Shown: piece by piece, positions 38,306 through 50,196 of the stretch
How positions within the stretch are numbered: the stretch's first letter is position 1
Layout: each line of letters starts with the position of its first letter
Source of the DNA: Lactobacillus johnsonii ATCC 33200
GTDB taxonomy: Bacteria > Bacillota > Bacilli > Lactobacillales > Lactobacillaceae
Length of the DNA: 57,793 nucleotides
Direction: 5' to 3'
Assembly: GCF_000159355.1 (NCBI RefSeq)
Contig: NZ_GG670121.1
Coordinates: 1-57,793 of the forward strand
Position numbers and translations under genes: made by a program
Notes under the pieces: generated by a model
Databases searched by the model: none
Told to the model about the DNA's origin: nothing
The model's input: only the letters and a program-made list of their open reading frames with translations

Positions 38306-38388
38306 TCGTTACCAAATATCCTTTCTTCCAAAAACCTATGTTCTATTATAACGTAAAAATCACTTAAAAATGTTAACTCTTGTGGCGC

Positions 38389-38426
38389 AAAAAAATTCTC
38401 CATGCCTAATTGCATGAAGAATTTTT
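38389..38426 (-). terminator. Terminator of the Rgg-linked ABC operon
   Basis: On the minus strand AAAAATTCT-CATGC arms pair with GCATG-AGAATTTTTTT around a short loop, just after the exporter stop. Confidence 0.85.
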
Positions 38427-38432
38427 CTAACA

Positions 38433-40196
38433 TTAAATATATGCATTTTTCTGTAAGTTATACATTTCTTGATATTTTGCATTTTTATTCAATAAATTAG
38501 CATGAGTATCAAAGCCACTAACTTTTCCACTATCAAGAAAGAGTACTTTATCAGCAAACTTAACTGCAGATAGTCTGTGCGTAACAAAGAAGATCGTCTT
38601 TTGGTTGTTTTCTCTTAAAAAGCGCTCATAAATTTCTGCTTCACTCTTAGCATCTAACGCTGCTGTCGGTTCATCTAAAAATTCAATCTTACCATTTGCA
38701 TATAAGTCTCGTGCTAAAGCAATCTTCTGCCATTGACCACCAGATAAGTCAGTTCCATTTTCAAAATCTTTAGCAAGAATCATGCTTAGTTGCAGATGAT
38801 CATTAGCCAGCAAATTCTCTAGGCCTGCTGCTTTTAAAACATTATTTACTCGCTCTTCATTAAATGAATATCCCGTAATCACATTTTCTTTAAGCGTTAA
38901 CTTAAAATGAGAAAAATCTTGGAAAGTAGCTGATAAATTTTTATGTAGGTCAAAAATATTAAAATCTTTTAAATTATCATCATCAATTGAAATAGCTCCA
39001 GTAGTCGGGTCATAAAATCGCATTAACAACTTTACTAAAGTAGATTTTCCTGATCCATTTTCACCAACAATTGCGATCTTTTCACCATTTTTTACTGAAA
39101 AACTAACATTGTGTAAAACTTCATCATCAGAAAATGGGTATGTAAATGAAAGATCCTTAACTTCAATCTTCTTAAACTCATCAGGAAATTCTTGCTTTCC
39201 ATTTTCAAAATTATCGTGATATTCAAGAAAATTAAAGTACTTTTCAATCCACAGTAAAGAATCATAGAGCAGACTGCTATCTTCCACTACTCGTGCCATA
39301 CTTGTGGAAATATAACCAATTACAGAAACAAACATTAACAAAACGCCAACTTCTAGAGCACCTGTTCTTACCGAGTTAGTAAACCAATAAAAACCGTAAC
39401 CAAACACTCCAACAGTTAGAAGAACAAATGCTGAACTAACAGCAAGTTGCTTTTTACGAATTTGATTTACATCCCTTTTAGTCTGTTCAAATAAGGTCGT
39501 ATACTTTTTAATAATTTTAGGAAACATATTGAAAAGTCGAACTTCTTTAGCATCCCTGCGGTCTAACAACAAACTACTATAGTAATGTAAGTATCTCGCA
39601 TTCTTGCTTCTTTCAACCATTGTCTCAAATGATTGCTGCTGAATACGGTAATAAGAAATACTCTGCGGCACCATTACAACTAATAATAAGAGCGCCAGCC
39701 ACCAATTATAACGAGCCAAATACACTAACATAAAAGCTAACGTTAAAAACGACTGCAAAACTGATACTCCAAAAACAATTAAATTAACTGGACGCCAGCT
39801 TGCATCATCTCGAAGCATTTGTAAATCATCAAAGTATTTACTGTCGTCAAAAATCCTAATTGACTGTAAATCTTCAGATTTCTTCATCAAACTAATGTTA
39901 ATAAAACCTGTTAATTTATCAGTTAAAATTCCCTGCACCATTGTTGATAAAGATGGTAAAAACTGTTGAAACGCAGTCGCTACAATCCATACAATGATCA
40001 TTTCCATAAAGGGAGAATGATTAGTAACCTGGTCAATTACCTTTTGTCCGGCTGCCACGGCAATTAACGGAACTACCGCTTGCAAGGGTGCTAATAATAA
40101 AACGCAAGTCGCAATTAGAGGTGCTGATTTAAAGAACAAATGATAGGTTCTAGCTAATTCGTTGAAGTACTGATTTAATTTTTTAACGTGCTTCAT
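38433..40196 (-). CDS. ABC exporter, fused permease-ATPase
   Basis: This 587-residue half-transporter has hydrophobic segments at about 22-48, 63-84, 130-175, 250-275 and 280-303. A complete ATPase follows from about 345: Walker A GENGSGKST, Q-loop FQDFSH, signature DLSGGQWQKIALAR, Walker B and catalytic Glu EFLDEPTAALD, and H-loop FVTHRL. No C39 peptidase domain is present, so it would not cleave double-Gly leaders. It is last in the operon with the FecR-like gene and a 7-codon peptide ORF, downstream of an Rgg regulator. Peptide export is inferred from context. Confidence 0.88.
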   Translation of the reverse strand: MKHVKKLNQYFNELARTYHLFFKSAPLIATCVLLLAPLQAVVPLIAVAAGQKVIDQVTNHSPFMEMIIVWIVATAFQQFLPSLSTMVQGILTDKLTGFINISLMKKSEDLQSIRIFDDSKYFDDLQMLRDDASWRPVNLIVFGVSVLQSFLTLAFMLVYLARYNWWLALLLLVVMVPQSISYYRIQQQSFETMVERSKNARYLHYYSSLLLDRRDAKEVRLFNMFPKIIKKYTTLFEQTKRDVNQIRKKQLAVSSAFVLLTVGVFGYGFYWFTNSVRTGALEVGVLLMFVSVIGYISTSMARVVEDSSLLYDSLLWIEKYFNFLEYHDNFENGKQEFPDEFKKIEVKDLSFTYPFSDDEVLHNVSFSVKNGEKIAIVGENGSGKSTLVKLLMRFYDPTTGAISIDDDNLKDFNIFDLHKNLSATFQDFSHFKLTLKENVITGYSFNEERVNNVLKAAGLENLLANDHLQLSMILAKDFENGTDLSGGQWQKIALARDLYANGKIEFLDEPTAALDAKSEAEIYERFLRENNQKTIFFVTHRLSAVKFADKVLFLDSGKVSGFDTHANLLNKNAKYQEMYNLQKNAYI

Positions 40197-40228
40197 TTAC
40201 TTTTCCTCCAATTGTCAAGTGCCAAAGC

Positions 40229-40900
40229 CTACCGCCAATTTACTGGATTAACAAAATAACTATATATTTTATTAATTTCCAAATTTGTCATTTCTCTTTG
40301 TTTAATTACACTATACCTATTTCTCATAGGTGTATTTTTATCTTTCTTCAGTTCTGTTACTATAAGTTCACCGGAAATAAACAATGGAAATTTTTTACCA
40401 GATTCATCATATTCATAAATTACGGTTTCTTCATCTAGTCCATAGTATGCATCTACATCGTCAGAAACATTCATAATCAATAAATTAATACCTGGCTTAA
40501 TGTCGTTATAACAACTAGTACGATATTTACCACCATCTACAAACTCATTATTTGAAGTTCCAAAGATATATACTTTGCCATAATAAACTGGTACTACTCC
40601 TGCAATCGTTCGTTCAATACTAAATTCACTATTTTTGTCTAATCTAAATGTAATACCAGATGAAGCTCTAATTTCAAGTCTTTGATTATTAGTCTCTAAC
40701 AATCCTCCTTCTGAGATTGCCATTCCCGATCTAAGTTTATGCACCACTCCGCTTAAATCCGTAAAAATTGCTTCCTTACCATTATTATTTGATACAAAAG
40801 TTACTACATATGATACATTTGAGCTTTGATGACCTAATTTTTTATGTTGATCATGTGTATTAAACTCTGTTTTATCTTTATATTTTAATAATAAACTCAT
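40229..40900 (-). CDS. FecR-like soluble protein of the Rgg locus
   Basis: This 223-residue protein is unrecognised by overall identity. Residues about 25-100 (FTDLSGVVHKLRSGMAISEGG, LLETNNQRLEIRASSG, ITFRLDKNSEFSIER) have the spacing of a FecR domain: G-V-x..L..G..I then a strand and a 'G..v.l..nS' turn. The rest is strand-rich with a GTSNNEF turn. No membrane helix or signal is present. Start is ATG 40900 with GGAGG at 40910-40914; the upstream TTG is spurious. It sits between the 7-codon ORF and the ABC exporter, 32 bases before the latter. Confidence 0.6.
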   Translation of the reverse strand: MSLLLKYKDKTEFNTHDQHKKLGHQSSNVSYVVTFVSNNNGKEAIFTDLSGVVHKLRSGMAISEGGLLETNNQRLEIRASSGITFRLDKNSEFSIERTIAGVVPVYYGKVYIFGTSNNEFVDGGKYRTSCYNDIKPGINLLIMNVSDDVDAYYGLDEETVIYEYDESGKKFPLFISGELIVTELKKDKNTPMRNRYSVIKQREMTNLEINKIYSYFVNPVNWR

Positions 40901-40940
40901 GTTGATATACCTCCACAAATATTATCATAAAAGCTAATTC

Positions 40941-40964
40941 TCAAAAGGGAAACAATGGATACAT
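40941..40964 (-). CDS. Candidate leaderless signalling peptide MYPLFPF
   Basis: A 7-codon ORF (ATG 40964, TGA ending at 40941) has an SD of GAGGTGAT (40969-40976), a full match to the anti-SD core with about 8-base spacing from the GAGG. The peptide MYPLFPF is hydrophobic and aromatic with no leader. Size and place resemble SIP (MWLLLLFL), the leaderless pheromone of RopB in S. pyogenes. It lies 40 bases before the FecR-like gene and downstream of the Rgg gene. Translation and function are inferred. Confidence 0.6.
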   Translation of the reverse strand: MYPLFPF

Positions 40965-41018
40965 GACTATCACCTCATATTTTTTATCTTTAATTTAATT
41001 TGTTTTTTTATATTTATA

Positions 41019-41024
41019 ATTATA
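41019..41024 (-). promoter_or_regulatory. -10 box of the peptide/ABC operon
   Basis: TATAAT on the minus strand, about 55 bases before the peptide ATG. The matching -35 position (41042-41047, TTTCTT) is poor and touches a palindrome, which fits an activator-dependent promoter. Confidence 0.5.
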
Positions 41025-41046
41025 TTCACATTAATACACAAAAGAA

Positions 41047-41070
41047 AAAAGTGTCTAAATTGACACTTTT
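41047..41070 (-). promoter_or_regulatory. Perfect palindrome at the rgg 3' end: terminator and/or Rgg operator
   Basis: AAAAGTGTC-AATTTA-GACACTTTT is fully symmetric. It contains the last codons and stop (TAG) of rgg and is followed by T residues, so it can terminate rgg. It also sits just upstream of the -35 region of the peptide operon, where an Rgg activator would bind. Confidence 0.6.
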
Positions 41071-41888
41071 AAAACTTCAGCAATTTTGTTCATATCGTTA
41101 TTACTCAAAAAAGATAATATATCTTGTATCTTTCTCTTATCTTGCTCTAAATATGCTTGATAAAAATTCTTCATGATTTTATTAAAACAATTAGCAGGTT
41201 CAATAGGTAAGCGGTCTAACAAATTAAATATCTCACCTATAAATTCTACATTTTGATAGGAAGACCTGATCATGTGAGATAAATAATTGACCATAATAGA
41301 AGAAACCAAAACTTGAGTTGAACGAGGAAAGTTCTCAATATTATTATATTTTTTGATAAATGAAGATAGCAATGTTTTCATTTCTCCATCTGTCCAAAAG
41401 GATAGGCTTAATGAGAACAGTCTTAATTTATCTTCATTCCACTCACCTTCAAGTATTAAAGCTTTTATTTGATCTCTTTTTTTATTTGGAATCTGATCAA
41501 TTTTTCTACTTATAATGAACTCAGCCAAAATAGCATTGGCCTCTAAAATTTTTTGCAAAGATTCGCTCCCTTTAACTTCTACTATTTTACCTTTTAAGCT
41601 TTTTACTTGTTCTAAATCTTGGCCATAATATGCTTGGCGTAATTTAGACATCCATTGATCTTTATCAATTCTATTATCCTTAACCCCGCATTTTACTAGA
41701 AATTCACTAATATCAACATCATGCATTTCTAAAATCTTAATTAAATCACTGGCATTAATCTCGTGGATTCCTCGTTCAATTTTAGAATAATAAGATTTCG
41801 TTAGAATAGGATATGCCATCTCGGTTTGAGATAATCCTAGATTTTTTCTAGTTTCTTTTAAAGCTTCGCCAATGGTCATCACTGTCAT
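41055..41888 (-). CDS. Rgg/RopB-type transcriptional regulator
   Basis: This protein of about 277 residues has an N-terminal HTH (IGEALKETRKNLGLSQTEMAYPILTKSYYSKIERGIHEINASDLIKIL). An all-helical TPR-like C-terminal domain follows, typical of the Rgg/GadR/MutR branch of RRNPP peptide receptors. These bind short hydrophobic peptides in the cytosol. The start could be ATG 41888 or ATG 41879; the SD is weak (AGAAAG). A -10 TATAAT lies at 41933-41938. It is directly upstream of, and codirectional with, the 7-codon peptide ORF, FecR-like gene and exporter. Confidence 0.88.
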   Translation of the reverse strand: MTVMTIGEALKETRKNLGLSQTEMAYPILTKSYYSKIERGIHEINASDLIKILEMHDVDISEFLVKCGVKDNRIDKDQWMSKLRQAYYGQDLEQVKSLKGKIVEVKGSESLQKILEANAILAEFIISRKIDQIPNKKRDQIKALILEGEWNEDKLRLFSLSLSFWTDGEMKTLLSSFIKKYNNIENFPRSTQVLVSSIMVNYLSHMIRSSYQNVEFIGEIFNLLDRLPIEPANCFNKIMKNFYQAYLEQDKRKIQDILSFLSNNDMNKIAEVLKVSI

Positions 41889-41948
41889 CTTCTTTCTTAA
41901 CAAAAAATTACAGTTTAATTTTTTATTAAGATATTATACTCTACTACA

Positions 41949-44219: not shown

Positions 44220-45380
44220 CTAACCCTCCATAAATCTAGCAAACTTTTCAGCAGTTTTCTTCTTTTCGGATTTAGTGACGTGAGTATATACGTTCATTGT
44301 TGTTGTGATATCTGAATGCCCTAAACGTTCTTTTACGTCCTGCATTGGTGTTCCAGCCTCGAATAATAAAGAGGCGTGAGTGTGGCGAAAGCCGTGTACA
44401 GTAATATGTTTAAGTCGTGCGTCTTTTGCTATTGTTTTATTCCAATATTGAACTAACCACGGTCTTATTAACTGATTATTGCCGTTGCTAAAAAGTAACT
44501 GGTCGTCTGTTAGAGCATTAAACCCCACCTTAAACAACTCTTTACGTTGCCTCTTTCTCCATTCTTGCAAGTAATAAATAGTCTGTTCATCTACTTGTAT
44601 AGTTCGATTACTTGCTTTTGTTTTAGGCGTACCAATCACTAAAGAGTTATGCGTTCCTAAAGATAAAGTTTTATTAATCCTTATTGTTTCATTTTCAAAA
44701 TCTATATCACTCCACTTTAATGCTAGCGCCTCGCCTTTTCGCATCCCTGTATAAGCCAAAAGTCTAAAGAATAAATACACTCTAGGATTTTTCTTCTGCT
44801 TGCAAGCGTCTAAATATTTATTTAACTCTTCTTTTGAGTAAAAATTAGTAAACTCCCGCTTATCTTTTTGCATTTTGGGTTTAATTACCCTTTTCATTGG
44901 ATTTTTAACAATCAAGTCATTATTAACGGCATAATCCAAAACTTTAGAAGACAAGCTATAGACTTTCCTATACATTTTTGGCAAGTCACTAAACCACTTG
45001 TTAAGAGCTTTCTGGCATCTAAATGTACTTATCTTTTCTACATATAACTCGCCCAATACAGGCAAAATATGATTTTTAAAACATGCTTTAGTATTCAGCA
45101 AAGTAGTAGGCTTTACCGTTAACTCATAATTAGCAAGCCACATCTCATAAATCTTTTTAAATTTATGTTTCTTGTTTTCTTTACCTGTATAAGTTCCCTT
45201 TGCTATTTTGTCTTTAATTTCAAAGTAAGACTTTAGGGCATCATCATAGCTTTTAAAGCCTTGCTTTCGTGCTTGTATGCTATTGCCTGTTTCTTCGTCC
45301 TTGCCTACATAAATCTTAAACTTATAACGAACTTGACCGCTAGGTGTTTTGTATTCGCTTATATCCTTGTTTCTTTTCAT
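44220..45380 (-). CDS. int: Tyrosine integrase
   Basis: This phage-type integrase of about 386 residues has an AP2-like arm-binding N-terminus (YKTPSGQVRYKFKIYVGKDEETGNSIQARKQGF) and a SAM-like core-binding domain. The catalytic domain has Arg in TGMRKGEALAL (about 212), HGFRH (about 328-332) and Tyr in MNVYTHVT (about 363). ATG 45380 is preferred, with AAGGGTGG 5 bases upstream; GTG 45389 is within that SD. Its stop is 90 bp from the att core. Confidence 0.95.
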   Translation of the reverse strand: MKRNKDISEYKTPSGQVRYKFKIYVGKDEETGNSIQARKQGFKSYDDALKSYFEIKDKIAKGTYTGKENKKHKFKKIYEMWLANYELTVKPTTLLNTKACFKNHILPVLGELYVEKISTFRCQKALNKWFSDLPKMYRKVYSLSSKVLDYAVNNDLIVKNPMKRVIKPKMQKDKREFTNFYSKEELNKYLDACKQKKNPRVYLFFRLLAYTGMRKGEALALKWSDIDFENETIRINKTLSLGTHNSLVIGTPKTKASNRTIQVDEQTIYYLQEWRKRQRKELFKVGFNALTDDQLLFSNGNNQLIRPWLVQYWNKTIAKDARLKHITVHGFRHTHASLLFEAGTPMQDVKERLGHSDITTTMNVYTHVTKSEKKKTAEKFARFMEG

Positions 45381-45407
45381 GTTTACCACCCTTATTTTTT
45401 GCTACAA

Positions 45408-45429
45408 GCGTAAATGTGCTAATCAAAGG
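45408..45429 (+). repeat. Dispersed 22-bp motif, copy 1
   Basis: Begins GCGTAAATGTGCTA and ends ATCAAAGG; a close copy is at 49275-49295 and an inverted copy with one mismatch at 52053-52074. Here it is in the int upstream region, a candidate Xis/repressor/arm site. Confidence 0.6.
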
Positions 45430-45495
45430 CTTTTAACACAAACATTAGCAATAGCAGTTACTAATATTTGAAACATGCTTTTAACAAGAAAATTG

Positions 45496-45846
45496 TCAAG
45501 TTTTGTCAGGTTCTGAGATGCACACTTTTTAGTTTAGTTGCAGTCAGTAAGTAGCAAGATATAGGCAACAAGAGCCGTTAAAGTCGGGGTATAATGCTAG
45601 CTTTTGCTAACATCAATTAACTACATCCCTTTGAGGGATGTTTTTTATTTATCTGTATCAGTCAACATTTACATTTCAAGGCGTATTTGTAGCTACTCGT
45701 TGCTAGCTTGTATTTTTAAGTATTCTCTACCAGCGTATGTAAAAGTACGTAGGTACAGCCGTAATTATGATTACACCTGTAAAATTTAATAAGCGTAGTT
45801 ACAGCTACGGACATCATGACACCCTAAAAAGAAAAGTTTCAGGGAT
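45496..45846 (+). repeat. Non-coding module A (paralog of module B)
   Basis: The order is a TCAAGTT/TCAGGTT pair with 10-bp period (45496-45512), AGAGCCGTTAAA, TATAAT (45590-45595), a GCTAGC/GCTAAC pair with 10-bp period (45596-45611), and a CATCCC-TTTGA-GGGATG hairpin followed by T6 (45624-45646). A variable palindrome-rich stretch comes next. The end is AAGCGTA hairpin, CGGACATCATGACACCCT and an AGGGAT closing arm. No convincing ORF is present. The hairpin could end a transcript of about 45 nt. Confidence 0.7.
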
Positions 45847-46017
45847 GAACAAAACGTTCAGACCTGCACTACCAAACTAGTACCGCAGACTAGATAAAAA
45901 ACAAGCGTGCAGAGTGTACGGTTGTTATAAGTCCTTTTCTTTTGTATTTAATATCGGATTATCAGAAATAATTTTAGTTAATGACGCATCCATTTTTGGA
46001 TTGGTTAAAATTACTAA

Positions 46018-46057
46018 ATGCTAGCTTTTGCTAACATCGTTCAGGTTTTTTCAGGTT
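46018..46057 (+). repeat. Partial third module copy
   Basis: ATGCTAGCTTTTGCTAACAT is identical to module A, then a TCAGGTT pair at 46041 and 46051 (10-bp period). It lies between modules A and B. Confidence 0.65.
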
Positions 46058-46084
46058 CAAATACTAATAATTCAGCAAAAAAAG

Positions 46085-46420
46085 TCAGGTTTTGTCAGGT
46101 TCAAAGGTGCAACTCGCTTTATTTTATGTGCAATCAGCAAGTAGCAATCTATAGACACTAAGAGCCGTTGAAATTATCGGTAAAATGATAACTTTTGATA
46201 ACATCAATTAATTACATCACTTTGAGGGATGCCAATATTTTTAATTCAAAGCAACTTGTTAACAACAACGAGGTAACTTATAAGTTACTTCGTTCAAGGT
46301 AATCTATTAATTATTCGTTTATCTTTAATATTGAACATTTGCAGTTATAACTGCAGTTGTTAACAAGCGTAACCGCAGTTGCGGACATCATGACACCCTA
46401 AAAAAGAAAGTTTAAGGGAT
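46085..46420 (+). repeat. Non-coding module B (paralog of module A)
   Basis: It has the same block order as module A: TCAGGTT pair (46085-46101), AGAGCCGTTGAA, TAAAAT (46181-46186), GATAAC pair (46187-46202), CATCAC-TTTGA-GGGATG, and an AAGCGTA hairpin (46365-46384) with CGGACATCATGACACCCT and AGGGAT. The middle holds a CTTGTTAAC/GTTAACAAG outer pair enclosing GTAACT-TATA-AGTTAC and GCAGTTATAACTGC hairpins. Stem sequences differ from A but pairing is kept. Confidence 0.7.
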
Positions 46421-46425
46421 ACGAG

Positions 46426-47232
46426 TTAATGTTCAGTTTTAGAATACTTATTTATAAAACTTTTCAGGTTTTTATTTATATCATTATCGTTTAGTAACTC
46501 CTTTAAAATTTCGTTGTATTCTTTATAAATTCCTGTTGGTTGTGGGTTTTCAGGTAGATATTTAAGTTCTTTTTTTATTTTTTCTAAATTACCTTGAATA
46601 ATCTCAATAAATAATTTCAAATCTTTTTTATCAGCTATTCTTGAATATTCTAATAAGGCATCGTTGATATTTAATTTAATTAAATTTTTATCTATCATTT
46701 TGCTAATTGGCGTGCTAGTAACATCTAAACGATGCTTTTTTATTACTAACTTCAAATTCTGTTTTAGTTCTTCACTAGCTCCACCAGCATAAAATATATT
46801 TTTAGCTATTAAGATTTTAACTAGTTCGCTTTCACTGAATATAAAATTAAAATTCTTTTGCCAATAATCAACAACTTCAAGTGGATATTCTTCTAGTTTT
46901 TCTTTTTTAAATTTGGTTAGAGGTAATTCTTTGTTTTGTGACTTTAAATAAATTTCTATTTCTTTACCTAGTTCATCATTGGATAAATAAGCATTATTTA
47001 ATATCTTTAGTATCTCTTTTTTTGAAAAACCGTTCATTCCTTGCAAGTATGGCACAGAAACCCCGAAAAAGTCGGCTAGCTTTTGCCAAGTCTCCAATTT
47101 TGGTTCACGGTCGCCCCGTTCATATTTTGCTAAGGCATCAGGAGAAATTTTTAAATTATTTTGTTCTAATTGAGAGCTAACTTCTTTAAGAGTTAGCTTT
47201 TTTTCTTTGCGCAATTCTCTTAATCTGTTCAT
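46426..47232 (-). CDS. XRE-family element repressor (Stl/CI-like)
   Basis: This protein of about 268 residues has an N-terminal HTH (MNRLRELRKEKKLTLKEVSSQLEQNNLKISPDALAKYERGDREPKLETWQKLADFFGV). A long helical C-terminus follows that lacks the Ser-Lys peptidase of LexA/CI repressors. RecA-driven self-cleavage is thus unlikely; derepression by a helper-phage antirepressor, as for SaPI Stl, would fit. ATG 47232 is chosen, with AAAGGGGG upstream. It faces the AlpA-like gene across an operator region. Confidence 0.85.
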   Translation of the reverse strand: MNRLRELRKEKKLTLKEVSSQLEQNNLKISPDALAKYERGDREPKLETWQKLADFFGVSVPYLQGMNGFSKKEILKILNNAYLSNDELGKEIEIYLKSQNKELPLTKFKKEKLEEYPLEVVDYWQKNFNFIFSESELVKILIAKNIFYAGGASEELKQNLKLVIKKHRLDVTSTPISKMIDKNLIKLNINDALLEYSRIADKKDLKLFIEIIQGNLEKIKKELKYLPENPQPTGIYKEYNEILKELLNDNDINKNLKSFINKYSKTEH

Positions 47233-47287
47233 TTTCTCGCCCCCTTTATTAAAGAATATTAACACAAAATATTATTATTTAATACAT

Positions 47288-47350
47288 ATTGTCTTGACAA
47301 TACAAAATGTATAATTTAATATTTGCTTTGTTAAAAGATACAAAACGTAT
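47288..47350. promoter_or_regulatory. Divergent operator/promoter region of the element
   Basis: Palindrome ATTGTC-TT-GACAAT (47288-47301) covers the rightward -35 TTGACA (47294-47299). Next is ATACA-AAA-TGTAT (47300-47312) and a related ATACAAAACGTAT (47338-47350). A -10 TAATAT lies 17 bp from the -35. These are likely repressor sites switching between the repressor and early genes. Confidence 0.7.
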
Positions 47351-47373
47351 TTTTATAGAAAAGAGGTTAGAAA

Positions 47374-47568
47374 GTGGCTATTGAATATTTAACGTTCAAA
47401 GAGGCAATGAAGTATTTGGGGATGAAGTCCCCGATTACTTTAAGAAGTTACATTGATGCAGGTTTACCAGTTATTGAAGTAGGTAAATCTAAGAAGATAA
47501 GTAAAAGCGATATTGATGAGTTTATGAGTAAGCACAAAAGGACGGCACAACATGAAACGACTGTATAG
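47374..47568 (+). CDS. AlpA/excisionase-like helix-turn-helix protein
   Basis: This 64-residue MerR-type winged HTH (YLTFKEAMKYLGMKSPITLRSYIDAGLPVIEVGKSKKISKSDIDEFMSKHK) is of the kind used as excisionase or early regulator in phages and satellites. The start is GTG 47374 with AGAGGTT upstream. It is first gene to the right of the operator region, the cro/xis position. Its end overlaps the 54-residue membrane ORF by 17 bases. Confidence 0.8.
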   Translation: MAIEYLTFKEAMKYLGMKSPITLRSYIDAGLPVIEVGKSKKISKSDIDEFMSKHKRTAQHETTV

Positions 47569-47716
47569 AGCCTTTAAGAACTGGCTTTACTTACCAGATG
47601 GAGCAAGCAACGAAATATTTAATTTATTGCTGTTTGGCATCCTTGCCTTATCGTCCATTGTGGCAATCGTAAGCTTTACCAGAACACTAGGTATCTTCCT
47701 AGCATTGTTTAGATAG
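47552..47716 (+). CDS. Small membrane protein, 54 residues
   Basis: ATG 47552 has AAAGGA 10 bases upstream. The sequence is MKRLYRAFKNWLYLPDG, then a hydrophobic helix at about residues 24-43 (NLLLFGILALSSIVAIVSF) and a short second hydrophobic end. I do not recognise it. It overlaps the AlpA-like gene, so it is translated from the early transcript. Size and place recall small accessory membrane proteins of phage early regions. Confidence 0.65.
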   Translation: MKRLYRAFKNWLYLPDGASNEIFNLLLFGILALSSIVAIVSFTRTLGIFLALFR

Positions 47717-47731
47717 ATTGGAGTTTAAAGA

Positions 47732-47785
47732 ATGAGGTACACAGAAAACAATTTCAACAAGAAAATGAATATACCAACAAAATAA
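47732..47785 (+). pseudogene. 5' fragment of a frameshifted gene
   Basis: ATG 47732 has GGAG 8 bases upstream but stops after 17 codons (MRYTENNFNKKMNIPTK). One extra A in the A4 run at 47745-47748 would read MRYTEKQFQQENEYTNKIKFLKRST and join in frame to the ORF at 47806, giving 93 residues. The start for the intact gene is thus probably here. Confidence 0.6.
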
Positions 47786-47805
47786 AATTTTTAAAGCGGT
47801 CTACT

Positions 47806-48012
47806 ATGTTTGCTGAAAATGAAGGTAATTACAACATTGATGGTACTAATTACCCTATTTCTACTATCTGGCGTGAAGTTGCATCTACTGCGTTAGCATT
47901 AGCAGATTTAGCAGATTGGTTCGATAGATACGATAAGGACGGGCAAAACGATAACGATGAAGTTGTATTTGTGCGTAAAAATAGTTTTGAGGATGGTTTA
48001 GACAATGAATAA
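47806..48012 (+). CDS. Small acidic element protein (3' part of a frameshifted gene)
   Basis: The 68-residue ORF MFAENEGNYNIDGTNYPISTIWREVASTALALADLADWFDRYDKDGQNDNDE is acidic and soluble and I do not recognise it. Its ATG has no good SD, while a well-placed ATG with GGAG lies in another frame at 47732 and reads into this frame after a one-base insertion. Its last codons overlap the start of the next gene (48005). It is either a broken gene, a sequencing indel or a shifted product. Confidence 0.6.
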   Translation: MFAENEGNYNIDGTNYPISTIWREVASTALALADLADWFDRYDKDGQNDNDEVVFVRKNSFEDGLDNE

Positions 48013-48355
48013 GCAATTAACTAAGTTTGAAAAACAAGTTTTTGAGTGCATCCCTGCAGGTAAAGAACACCCTATTAGTCAACAGGATTTAGCATTAGCT
48101 AACGACACAACAAGACGCAATATTACTAGCACCGTTAGAAAGCTAAGGCTAAAAGGCCGTCTAGTTGGTTCAAGTCGTTCATCTATTAACGGCTATTACA
48201 AAATCAAAACCACCGAGGAATTTTTTGAAAATATAGGGATGCTGACAAGTCAACGAGATACTTTAAGCAAGACAATAACGGCAATGATGGAAACTTTTAA
48301 CGAAAAAGAGCCGTTAATAGGTCAACAATCTTTATTTAACCAAGTTAACGAGTAG
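48005..48355 (+). CDS. Winged-helix DNA-binding protein, 116 residues
   Basis: The N-terminal 65 residues form a winged HTH (LTKFEKQVFECIPAGKEHPISQQDLALANDTTRRNITSTVRKLRLKGRLVGSSRSSINGYYKI). The helical tail ends QQSLFNQVNE. Similar small proteins lie in early regions of Lactobacillus prophages. The start overlaps the preceding ORF by 8 bases. A hairpin AGCCC-ACTAA-GGGCT (48365-48379) follows the stop. Confidence 0.75.
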   Translation: MNKQLTKFEKQVFECIPAGKEHPISQQDLALANDTTRRNITSTVRKLRLKGRLVGSSRSSINGYYKIKTTEEFFENIGMLTSQRDTLSKTITAMMETFNEKEPLIGQQSLFNQVNE

Positions 48356-48417
48356 CAAAATAAAAAGCCCACTAAGGGCTATTAGATTTAACGAACTAAA
48401 AAGAAAGAGTGAAAACA

Positions 48418-48834
48418 ATGAATATTATTTATCCACCTTTAGTTGAACAGATGTATAAATTCATGCACGAAATAGATAAGAATGTAACTAAACAAGACGT
48501 TTACAAGAAAGCTATTGAGGCTAATATGATTGACTATCAAGGCAATCCCACTAAGTGGGCTATTAAACATGGATATATTGCAGAAATCCCAACAGTAAAC
48601 GAAAGACAAGCCAAACTAAATAAAACTAGTTCTACAACAAGTAGCGAAAAAGATTTAGATGCTGTTTTTAGTAGAATGCCACCTAGTGCTTTTACATGGA
48701 TAGAAAATCAAGGCAGTTATGCAATGGATACAGCCGAACTTAAAAAGGCTATCTTATCAGCTTTAAAAGATGGGAGCTTATCCCCTGTTGGTCGTAAACA
48801 TTGGTTAGAGGTTTTAGCAAAAATTAGAAACTAG
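48418..48834 (+). CDS. Hypothetical element protein, 138 residues
   Basis: I do not recognise the family. It reads MNIIYPPLVEQMYKFMHEIDKNVTKQDVYKKAIEANMIDYQGNPTKWAIKHGYI, then a Ser/Thr linker and a helical end. It is soluble. ATG 48418 is favoured with GAAAGAG upstream; GTG 48409 is in frame but has no spacing. The N-terminal part (NPTKWAIKHGYI) resembles short phage domains found on antirepressors and DNA-binding proteins; that is a weak inference. Confidence 0.65.
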   Translation: MNIIYPPLVEQMYKFMHEIDKNVTKQDVYKKAIEANMIDYQGNPTKWAIKHGYIAEIPTVNERQAKLNKTSSTTSSEKDLDAVFSRMPPSAFTWIENQGSYAMDTAELKKAILSALKDGSLSPVGRKHWLEVLAKIRN

Positions 48835-48849
48835 AAAGGAATAATCACA

Positions 48850-49149
48850 ATGGAAATTAAGCTAGATGCAGACCAAGAAAAGGAATTAACAAACCGTATT
48901 ATTAATTTAGTCAAAACAAGCGTTAAACAAGCTATAGGTAGCCAAGGCAAGCCCTATTTAAACCGTAAAGAGACCGCAAAATATTTTGGAGTTGCCGAAA
49001 GTACTATAAGATATTGGGCTAGTTTAGGGATGCCAGTTGCAAATATTAATGGTCATAAGTTATATGGCAAGCAAAGCATCACTGAATGGCTCAAAAGCAA
49101 AGAAGAGCCTAAAAAAGAACACAAAAAAAGCCCACTAAGGGGCATCTAA
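48850..49149 (+). CDS. Excisionase/MerR-type DNA-binding protein, 99 residues
   Basis: A basic helical N-terminus (TNRIINLVKTSVKQAIGSQG) is followed by a HTH_17 domain (PYLNRKETAKYFGVAESTIRYWASLGMPVANINGHKLYGKQSITEWLKSKE). It could be the excisionase or a second regulator beside the AlpA-like protein. It has SD GAAAGGA. A GC-rich hairpin (GCCC-ACTAA-GGGGC) lies at its 3' end. Confidence 0.78.
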   Translation: MEIKLDADQEKELTNRIINLVKTSVKQAIGSQGKPYLNRKETAKYFGVAESTIRYWASLGMPVANINGHKLYGKQSITEWLKSKEEPKKEHKKSPLRGI

Positions 49150-49157
49150 CAAATCTA

Positions 49158-49300
49158 AAGCATTAAAAAATCAAAAAATGTCTTTGACTATAGCAGTAAT
49201 CAAAGACTAGAGAAATAGCCGTTTAACACCTTTGGTTTATATTCTCTTTTTTGATTATAGCAGATTTTAAACAAGCGTAAATGTGTTAATCAAAGACTTT
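49158..49300 (+). repeat. Hairpin and second copy of the dispersed motif
   Basis: GTCTTTGA (49181-49188) and TCAAAGAC (about 49201-49208) form an 8-bp stem. The ACAAGCGTAAATGTG-type motif of the int upstream region recurs at 49271-49302. No ORF is seen here. Confidence 0.6.
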
Positions 49301-49322
49301 TAATATTTGAATGAGGTAAGCA

Positions 49323-49643
49323 ATGAGTGAAGAATATTTTTACAATATCACGTTGGCAGAATTAAGGACAAAATTAATAGCAAGAAAAGAAGAATTAAAA
49401 CTTAATTACACCGAATTATCCGCAATGACAAATGTTTCACGTGGAACTTTAATGCGCTTTATTAGCGGTAATAACAGCATTCAAGCTGATACATTTAGAA
49501 AATTATTTGAATGGATACATCTTCAAATTATGCCTATTACCTACCAAAAGACCTATAAAGATATAACTATCTTTTTACAACAAGTTCCAAACATTCAGCA
49601 TATAACTACCAAAGAGCCAGCAAAAACGGGGATGCTTAAATGA
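49323..49643 (+). CDS. XRE-like HTH protein, 106 residues
   Basis: A Cro/CI-type HTH lies in residues 8-65 (TLAELRTKLIARKEELKLNYTELSAMTNVSRGTLMRFISGNNSIQADTFRKLFEWI). A short tail without known domain follows. It is probably a regulator of the replication gene just downstream. It starts after ATGAGGTAAGCA, with GAGGTA as SD. Confidence 0.78.
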   Translation: MSEEYFYNITLAELRTKLIARKEELKLNYTELSAMTNVSRGTLMRFISGNNSIQADTFRKLFEWIHLQIMPITYQKTYKDITIFLQQVPNIQHITTKEPAKTGMLK

Positions 49644-49677
49644 TTAATCTTCCAAGTAATGTGAGGTGGTGTTATAT

Positions 49678-50196
49678 GTGACAAACAAAAGAAACTGGTT
49701 TCAATATCAATTAACAAAAAGCATATTTAAAAAGGGCTTAACACCAATTGAGTCATTAATATTAAGGTCGATTGAGGCACTAGACAATGGTAAAGGTTGC
49801 TTTGCCACTAATGAATATTTTGCAAGTTTTTTTGAAATTAACGTCTACACTGTTTCAAGAAATATAACTAAATTAAAAGATAAAGGATATATAACGGTGC
49901 GGTTAGAGCGCAAAAACAATAACAAGACTAAACGCATATTGAAAGTAAAACGTGCATCCCACTATACAGAACAAAGCGAAATAAATGGAGTTATCAATTA
50001 TATAAACGGCATGTTTAAAGAAGAACATGATTTTGAACCAATCAAGCCAACAACAGAAATAAAAAAAGCTATTCAGCAAAAAATAAAAGAATACCATTCA
50101 CAAAAAGAATTAATACAATACTTAAAAATGCACCGTGATAATTTTTTAAGTACGCACGGGGTTTCCTTATGGTTAAAAGGTCAATTAAATATTTAA
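49678..50196 (+). CDS. Replication-initiator-like winged-helix protein
   Basis: This protein of about 172 residues has an N-terminal HTH_36/RepA-N-like winged helix (FKKGLTPIESLILRSIEALDNGKGCFATNEYFASFFEINVYTVSRNITKLKDKGYITVRLERKN). The C-terminus is helical. GTG 49678 is chosen, with GAGGTG at 49663-49668. Iterons with 22-bp period and an AT-rich stretch lie just downstream, so a Rep or primase-loading role is likely. Transcription regulation is the alternative. Confidence 0.7.
   Translation: MTNKRNWFQYQLTKSIFKKGLTPIESLILRSIEALDNGKGCFATNEYFASFFEINVYTVSRNITKLKDKGYITVRLERKNNNKTKRILKVKRASHYTEQSEINGVINYINGMFKEEHDFEPIKPTTEIKKAIQQKIKEYHSQKELIQYLKMHRDNFLSTHGVSLWLKGQLNI

Follow-up and report, generated by a model that had tools for sequence, protein, structure and literature searches.

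Does the seven-codon open reading frame (ORF) MYPLFPF, which lies behind an Rgg-type regulator gene of Lactobacillus johnsonii ATCC 33200, encode a signal for the regulator next to it? The frame belongs to a cassette on the minus strand of contig NZ_GG670121.1, of which positions 1 to 57,793 (the window, 57,793 nucleotides [nt] long) were analysed. The gene order there is groEL, rgg, the tiny ORF, the gene of a FecR-like protein, the gene of an ATP-binding cassette (ABC) exporter, and mutS (groEL and mutS were named by eye from their translations). An earlier reading of the bare letters (hereafter the sequence-only reading) had seen in this arrangement a quorum-sensing cassette with a leaderless peptide, and its gene order, strand and coordinates held when the ORFs of the window were read again. 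The proposal as a whole is supported by a peptide motif in a fixed place behind rgg, by the geometry of a palindrome and a -10 element, and by the joint replacement of the Rgg ligand domain, the peptide and the FecR-like gene. We consider it quite likely that the cassette is a peptide-signalling unit similar to those of leaderless communication peptides (LCPs), acting as a positive-feedback switch for the FecR-like/exporter unit.

The tiny ORF behind rgg

The rgg gene (41055..41888, minus strand) encodes, from its first ATG at 41888, a protein of 277 amino acids with an N-terminal helix-turn-helix (HTH) domain and a C-terminal domain of the ligand-binding type; the listed ORF starts at a TTG at 41903. 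The name Rgg, given to the protein by the sequence-only reading, is sound for the HTH, which scores over the HTH_3 cut-off, while the C-terminal domain (Rgg_C) stays just under its curated cut-off (TIGR01716, 36.2 versus 36.9 bits; PF21259, 22.4 versus 27 bits). The relatives P0020 and P0025-P0030 carry precomputed PF21259 annotations. The tiny ORF itself (40941..40964, minus strand, 24 nt) reads ATG TAT CCA TTG TTT CCC TTT TGA, and its product is a predicted leaderless signal peptide. As claimed before, it has a good Shine–Dalgarno (SD) sequence, GAGGTGAT, at 40969..40976 on the minus strand with a spacing of 4.

A frame as short as this is unlikely to be a chance ORF, given how such frames are distributed. 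A search for the DNA pattern Pro-Trp-[Phe/Tyr]-Pro-Leu-stop that took no account of Rgg gave nine matches in 75 Lactobacillus genomes, and five of them had an in-frame ATG within six codons. All five stood 3' of an rgg gene in the same orientation, with 72-112 nt between the end of rgg and the first Pro codon; two of these are almost one and the same locus, found in two genomes. The motif had first been met in rgg-linked loci and the pattern written afterwards, so that the pattern and those loci are not independent. Among 49 matches in 397 genomes of the family, 30 loci were read and 19 left out; outside the genus, the 30 contained one case with a near ATG, a six-codon candidate (L057) with no rgg beside it. 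A broader pattern, M-x-P-x-[FY]-P-[LF]-stop, matched 11 times in the genus, and nine of the matches were true seven-codon ORFs, five behind an rgg and four within large ORFs.

In a count independent of peptide sequence, ATG ORFs of 6-20 codons with an SD, located +30 to +135 after a gene, were scored in the fetched loci. They followed 18 of 50 rgg genes versus 3 of 121 other genes (Fisher p 1.3e-8), or 17 of 45 versus 3 of 101 after the proteins had been grouped at 85% identity (p 9.5e-8); with an SD of at least six bases, such ORFs followed 13 rgg genes and one control.

Intact relatives of the peptide with an SD are MYPWFPL (G073), MFIPWYPL (G021, also G069), MGPWFPL (G016) and MGPCFPL (G059), whereas MFIPWYLL (G070), MFIPCYPL (G071) and MIPWYPC- (G073) are remnants that lack a usable SD or stop codon. 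The Pro codons differ among the relatives (CCA, CCT, CCC), as does the displayed flanking DNA, indicating that the peptide is conserved at the amino-acid level.

Of 395 Lactobacillales genomes, 13 had receptor matches at E ≤ 1e-20, and 10 of the 13 were Lactobacillus. The 277-residue cluster P0015 (clustered at 90% identity) holds 238 member sequences, and an uncultured Lactobacillus and L. taiwanensis DSM 21401 have Rggs with 63% identity to that of the window. A receptor tree places the window Rgg together with G073 and the G023/L. taiwanensis orthologues (99/99 support), and both MGP- peptides belong to one supported receptor pair.

More distant Lactobacillus Rggs have other leaderless-looking tiny ORFs with an SD at a similar offset, for example MDLLRNVIIILPEP, MDLLRDVIVVMPQR, MVIIVLPVLPHDFNK, MVIEFPILV and MYPTIPNF. 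These loci (L108, L103, L031, L032, L029, L101, L109, L115, L083, L027, L021 and L020) lie in some cases behind short palindromes.

A predicted operator and promoter at the rgg stop codon

A scan placed a terminator-like hairpin at the end of rgg (41047..41070, minus strand; fold of -11.4 kcal/mol for a 45-nt stretch). It contains the palindrome GTGTC-N6-GACAC (GTGTCAATTTAGACAC, 41051..41066, minus strand), which runs across the rgg stop codon and ends 26 nt before a perfect TATAAT (41019..41024, minus strand). A second terminator-like hairpin lies 3' of the exporter gene (38388..38429, minus strand; -20.7 kcal/mol for a 65-nt stretch). The single terminator that the sequence-only reading had assigned to all the genes is therefore wrong, and one operon ending in one terminator is ruled out, as rgg owns a hairpin. 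Instead, the peptide unit is probably transcribed from a promoter of its own and not as one operon with rgg.

The palindrome is conserved in the clade, defined here as rgg genes with a profile score over 230: it or a variant of it was found 3' of 19/19 such genes (13 groups at 85% identity), as GTGTC-N6-GACAC, GTGTTA/TAACAC or GTCATATATGAC-AC, with its first position between 12 nt ahead of and 24 nt past the stop codon's end. It is identical to that of the window in G023, L. taiwanensis and G073:C3. Moreover, L079 and L080 keep the palindrome and have lost the T-tract of the terminator, which argues for an operator. When 75 rgg 3' ends were compared with plain shuffles, 16 of 25 in the close set and 8 of 50 others had a significant palindrome (p < 0.05); since significance is found mainly in the close set, we keep the operator claim to the close clade. 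Within it, the palindrome is probably the operator bound by Rgg, and TATAAT the -10 element of the promoter of the peptide unit, both being predictions.

The distance between the two elements is also shared. A -10-like element (at least 5 of 6 positions) occurred 25-28 nt past the palindrome in 8 of 13 receptor groups, compared with a mean of 1.16 and a maximum of 6 in 2000 dinucleotide shuffles (0/2000 reached 8), for an offset picked post hoc. In the window, the -10 element is perfect, and by eye a good -35 was not seen. The other five groups, which have no -10-like element at this offset, weigh against our interpretation; they include those of MYPWFPL (G073) and MGPCFPL (G059), the intact peptides here being those of the first member of each group.

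Joint replacement of the ligand domain, peptide and FecR-like gene

Comparison of the window with G023 and L. taiwanensis by blastn and sliding identity revealed a replaced block at 40198..41659 (minus strand), which comprises the Rgg ligand domain, the gap, the tiny ORF and the FecR-like gene. The mutS gene of G023 has 97% DNA identity to that of the window, and the two loci are 98% identical from 42900 (in groEL) to 41659 (in rgg, past the HTH) and 96.5% identical from 40198 through the exporter gene. The compared HTH residues match at 64/64 positions and the operator is identical, whereas the ligand domain matches at 110/206; in place of the tiny ORF and the FecR-like gene, G023 has other DNA with a 79-residue ORF, membrane-like by eye. 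The pattern is the same in L. taiwanensis, with 62/64 identical residues in the HTH, 109/206 in the ligand domain, and 84% DNA identity in the exporter gene. At the protein level, the exporter is 97.8% identical in G023, 88.2% in L. taiwanensis and 60.8% in L091. The same two types of ligand domain occur on near-identical HTHs among the Rgg protein clusters (e.g., P0015 versus P0023/P0025). The ligand domain, the peptide and the FecR-like gene have been replaced together, while the DNA-binding domain, the operator and the exporter have been kept, as in a pherotype-like swap.

Such a joint replacement would be expected if ligand domain and peptide have to fit each other, as they do at pherotype loci. 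Alternatively, the other allele may have no peptide, and the block may come from ordinary recombination. The sharp block swap within one regulator gene offers a natural experiment on the signal-reading part of Rgg.

The distribution of the peptide also contains points that weigh against a signalling role. Among the 13 receptor groups, six have an intact peptide with an SD, one has a remnant only, and six have none. MYPLFPF itself is the largest departure from the motif, with Leu for Trp and a terminal Phe, and MDPWYPL (G016), although its ORF is intact, has only the weak SD AGGA. None of the four nearest orthologues (G023, G071, G069, G059) has a tiny ORF with an SD of at least five bases; the weak candidates there (of the MINIKNNCLEI type, SD GTGA) are not hydrophobic. 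Conservation was moreover assessed from DNA loci, a comparison outside which the relatives of about 90% identity (P0002-P0008, P0018 and P0019) remain.

The sequence-only reading had held that absence of the ORF from close homologues would speak against it, and the ORF is indeed missing from 4/4 of them. However, the ligand domain and the FecR-like gene have been replaced along with the tiny ORF in both of those aligned (G023 and L. taiwanensis), so the loss does not refute the pairing of peptide and receptor. The same gaps, namely the sister lineages with a near-identical exporter and no tiny ORF and the six groups without a peptide, could be taken to mean that the ORF is a chance frame or a relic, and that Rgg senses something else or acts ligand-free. 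We hold this to be highly improbable in view of the statistics of motif, SD and position, and of the receptor with MYPWFPL on the same supported branch as that of the window.

In G059 (L008), the rgg orthologue was found as two pieces that overlap but differ in frame, and it may be broken or inactive.

Downstream genes and relation to known peptide systems

Related peptides precede different operons. The MFIPWYPL cassette (G021) contains an ABC exporter, a 45-residue ORF with Cys close to the end, and a class III lanthipeptide synthetase in split form (RamC_N with a kinase, plus a LanC-like protein, over the Pfam cut-offs and under that of the full-length NCBIfam model). The MYPWFPL cassette (G073) has a 57-residue ORF, a protein similar to ATP-grasp peptide maturases (TIGR04187, E 1.4e-30, under cut-off) and ABC transporter genes, and that of MGPWFPL (G016) a bacteriocin of the lactococcin 972 family (over cut-offs), an ABC ATPase and a bacteriocin-associated membrane protein (TIGR01654, under cut-off). 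MGPCFPL (G059) is followed by a 46-residue ORF without family matches and an ABC exporter, and MDPWYPL (G016) by a 33-residue C-terminal piece of a FecR-like protein, whose full-length relatives are P0011 and P0012, and by an exporter 60.8% identical to that of the window. The peptide thus travels with Rgg while the cargo changes.

In the window itself, the cargo is the FecR-like protein (223 residues; 40229..40900, minus strand) and the ABC exporter (permease plus ATPase by profile matches; 38433..40196, minus strand). The label "FecR-like" given by the sequence-only reading is weak. The window protein matched no Pfam family and no NCBIfam model at the thresholds used (12.2 versus a cut-off of 50 bits for NF033682), and what speaks for the label is that 2 of 13 members of its family touch PF04773, under the cut-off (best E 0.0011). 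The family is thus linked, through the weak profile matches of a few members, to the FecR/LapA-retention-type proteins of PF04773 and NF033682, from which the window protein differs in its scores, in its length, and in adjoining an ABC exporter. The family alignment has 21 invariant columns, including KY-TSC and YDE-G, and one relative of 90% identity comes from L. paragasseri. Profile matches of the family to solved structures were weak (mostly an outer surface protein, best E 0.043) and were not used.

The exporter was said to lack a peptidase domain, and peptidase C39, which peptidase-containing bacteriocin exporters carry at the N-terminus, was indeed not among the 23 Pfam families listed for it at E up to 1. 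As related Rggs with related peptides head bacteriocin operons and operons for ribosomally synthesized and post-translationally modified peptides (RiPPs), the FecR-like/exporter pair is probably an export module for an antimicrobial or another small product.

The FecR-like family extends beyond the genus: of the 349 other Lactobacillaceae genomes searched, 7 have a match (one of them partial, one with a stop). Five of these genes have a tandem exporter gene, and one of the five (L035) has upstream a different HTH regulator, unmatched by the Rgg profile. These genes bear on whether the tiny ORF could be an upstream ORF that regulates the FecR-like gene as a translation or attenuation leader, the peptide being no signal. 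With 40 nt between its stop codon and the FecR-like ATG, the tiny ORF is near enough to the next gene for such a role, and its Pro-rich codons could slow ribosomes. Nevertheless, we find a leader rather improbable: none of the six non-partial FecR-like genes of other genera is preceded within 250 nt by a tiny ORF (5-20 codons) with an SD, genes of unrelated kinds (lanthipeptide, ATP-grasp, lactococcin 972-like and ABC) also have the motif in front of them, and each intergenic copy read lies behind an Rgg gene, except the L057 candidate.

If MYPLFPF is a signal, it would be translated from its own ORF, would leave the cell, perhaps via the adjacent exporter, and would re-enter and bind the Rgg encoded next to it, at the C-terminal domain. 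With the peptide bound, Rgg would then attach to the palindrome over the rgg stop codon, immediately before the peptide promoter, and switch on the genes of the FecR-like protein and the exporter as well as, by positive feedback, the peptide itself. The cassette has neither a peptide leader nor an importer gene, and a peptide of mature length would arise in the cytosol, as if Rgg could sense expression within the producing cell only, with no export and re-import. Such self-sensing appears improbable, since the operon of the window and related operons include an ABC exporter gene, and the LCP of Streptococcus salivarius acts from outside the cell, with Opp not needed, according to the text of Aggarwal 2023 (PMC10518010). 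The L. johnsonii genome has four matches to the OppA-type binding-protein family, one of them with internal stops.

The sequence-only reading had named RopB/SIP as the closest model. The class of leaderless peptides fits, but RopB/SIP is not its sole model, as the text of the same paper already describes LCPs as a class, including RopBlr/LCPlr of L. reuteri, in which the LCP induces an ABC-type transporter (PMC10518010). As described there, an Rgg-type receptor adjoins an ultrasmall ORF with an SD for an apparently mature hydrophobic peptide, with targets downstream, and RiPP clusters and ABC-type transporters are among the targets predicted, as in the related cassettes here. In S. salivarius, the receptor binds immediately before the -35 of the LCP promoter, comparable to the predicted operator ahead of TATAAT in the window. 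In contrast, the tiny ORF of the window is codirectional with and 3' of rgg, whereas published LCPs are predominantly, though not absolutely, divergent, and the predicted operator is fused to the rgg terminator, unlike in the published layout. The peptides differ as well, with 7-8 residues and P-x-[FY]-P here versus mostly 8-10 aliphatic/aromatic residues in LCPs, and so do the palindromes, GTGTC-N6-GACAC versus the half-sites GTTACGTNT; ATGTAACATATT (PMC10518010). With M, Y, L, F, F and two Pro, MYPLFPF falls within the aliphatic/aromatic definition of the class, in which Pro-containing LCPs deviate from the typical signature. The L. reuteri pair is divergent and its peptide has eight residues, and we liken it to the window system by description, not by sequence (PMC10518010).

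Streptococcal Rgg/SHP systems also combine an Rgg receptor with a neighbouring gene for a hydrophobic peptide. However, short hydrophobic peptides (SHPs) have leader sequences for processing and secretion, as the text of PMC13361665 describes, and a precursor of this type was rejected, as the seven residues of MYPLFPF include no leader.

None of six peptide sequences was found in the searched main texts, and the supplements and figures of PMC10518010, outside that scope, may list some; among the literature matches listed, there was no paper on P-x-[FY]-P peptides of Lactobacillus. A SIP-like pattern, sought to reach a RopB reference, was found in 0/395 genomes, and no RopB-labelled chain was among the solved chains listed, several of which carry the label "Transcriptional regulator" alone. 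The principle of LCPs is thus known, and the codirectional, seven-residue, Pro-aromatic-Pro form would be a new variation on it.

More broadly, we lean somewhat towards a clade of Rggs that is Lactobacillus' own, with leaderless P-[W/L/C]-[FY]-P-[LF] signals, interchangeable antimicrobial operons, and pherotype-like swapping of the block of ligand domain, peptide and effector against a fixed DNA-binding domain, operator and exporter. Peptides below routine annotation length could be sought by a simple rule: a short ORF with an SD and a Pro-aromatic-Pro motif about 70-110 nt behind an rgg that has a GTGTC palindrome by its stop codon. Bacteriocin loci often stay silent when Lactobacillus species, which are widespread as commensals of humans and animals and as probiotics, are grown in culture. 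If a synthetic peptide of seven residues turned on such a locus, it would be cheap to test and to use.

Two further kinds of locus were met in related genomes. In L093 and L077, an apparent remnant of the lanthipeptide cassette keeps the exporter, a tiny ORF that lacks a usable SD, and a stretch that by eye resembles a Cys-rich precursor, with synthetase genes not in the ORF list. In the orthologous locus of L001 (8300-10813) and L112 (5000-6501), a second rgg lies downstream of the exporter gene and is followed by a tiny ORF with an SD, MIIVTLPVLPKSN, and in L001 by a lantibiotic dehydratase (PF04738); MIIVTLPVLPKSN is a candidate for another leaderless peptide ahead of a RiPP cluster.

A plasmid or viral origin of the cassette was rejected: the FecR-like protein had zero matches in the plasmid collection, the Rgg matches there (31 records) were all below 60% identity, and relatives of the cassette were not found in the viral scan. 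Just upstream of groES/groEL, the window contains at 44220-50196 integrase, phage-type repressor and replication-initiation-like genes, which probably form a small integrated phage-like element.

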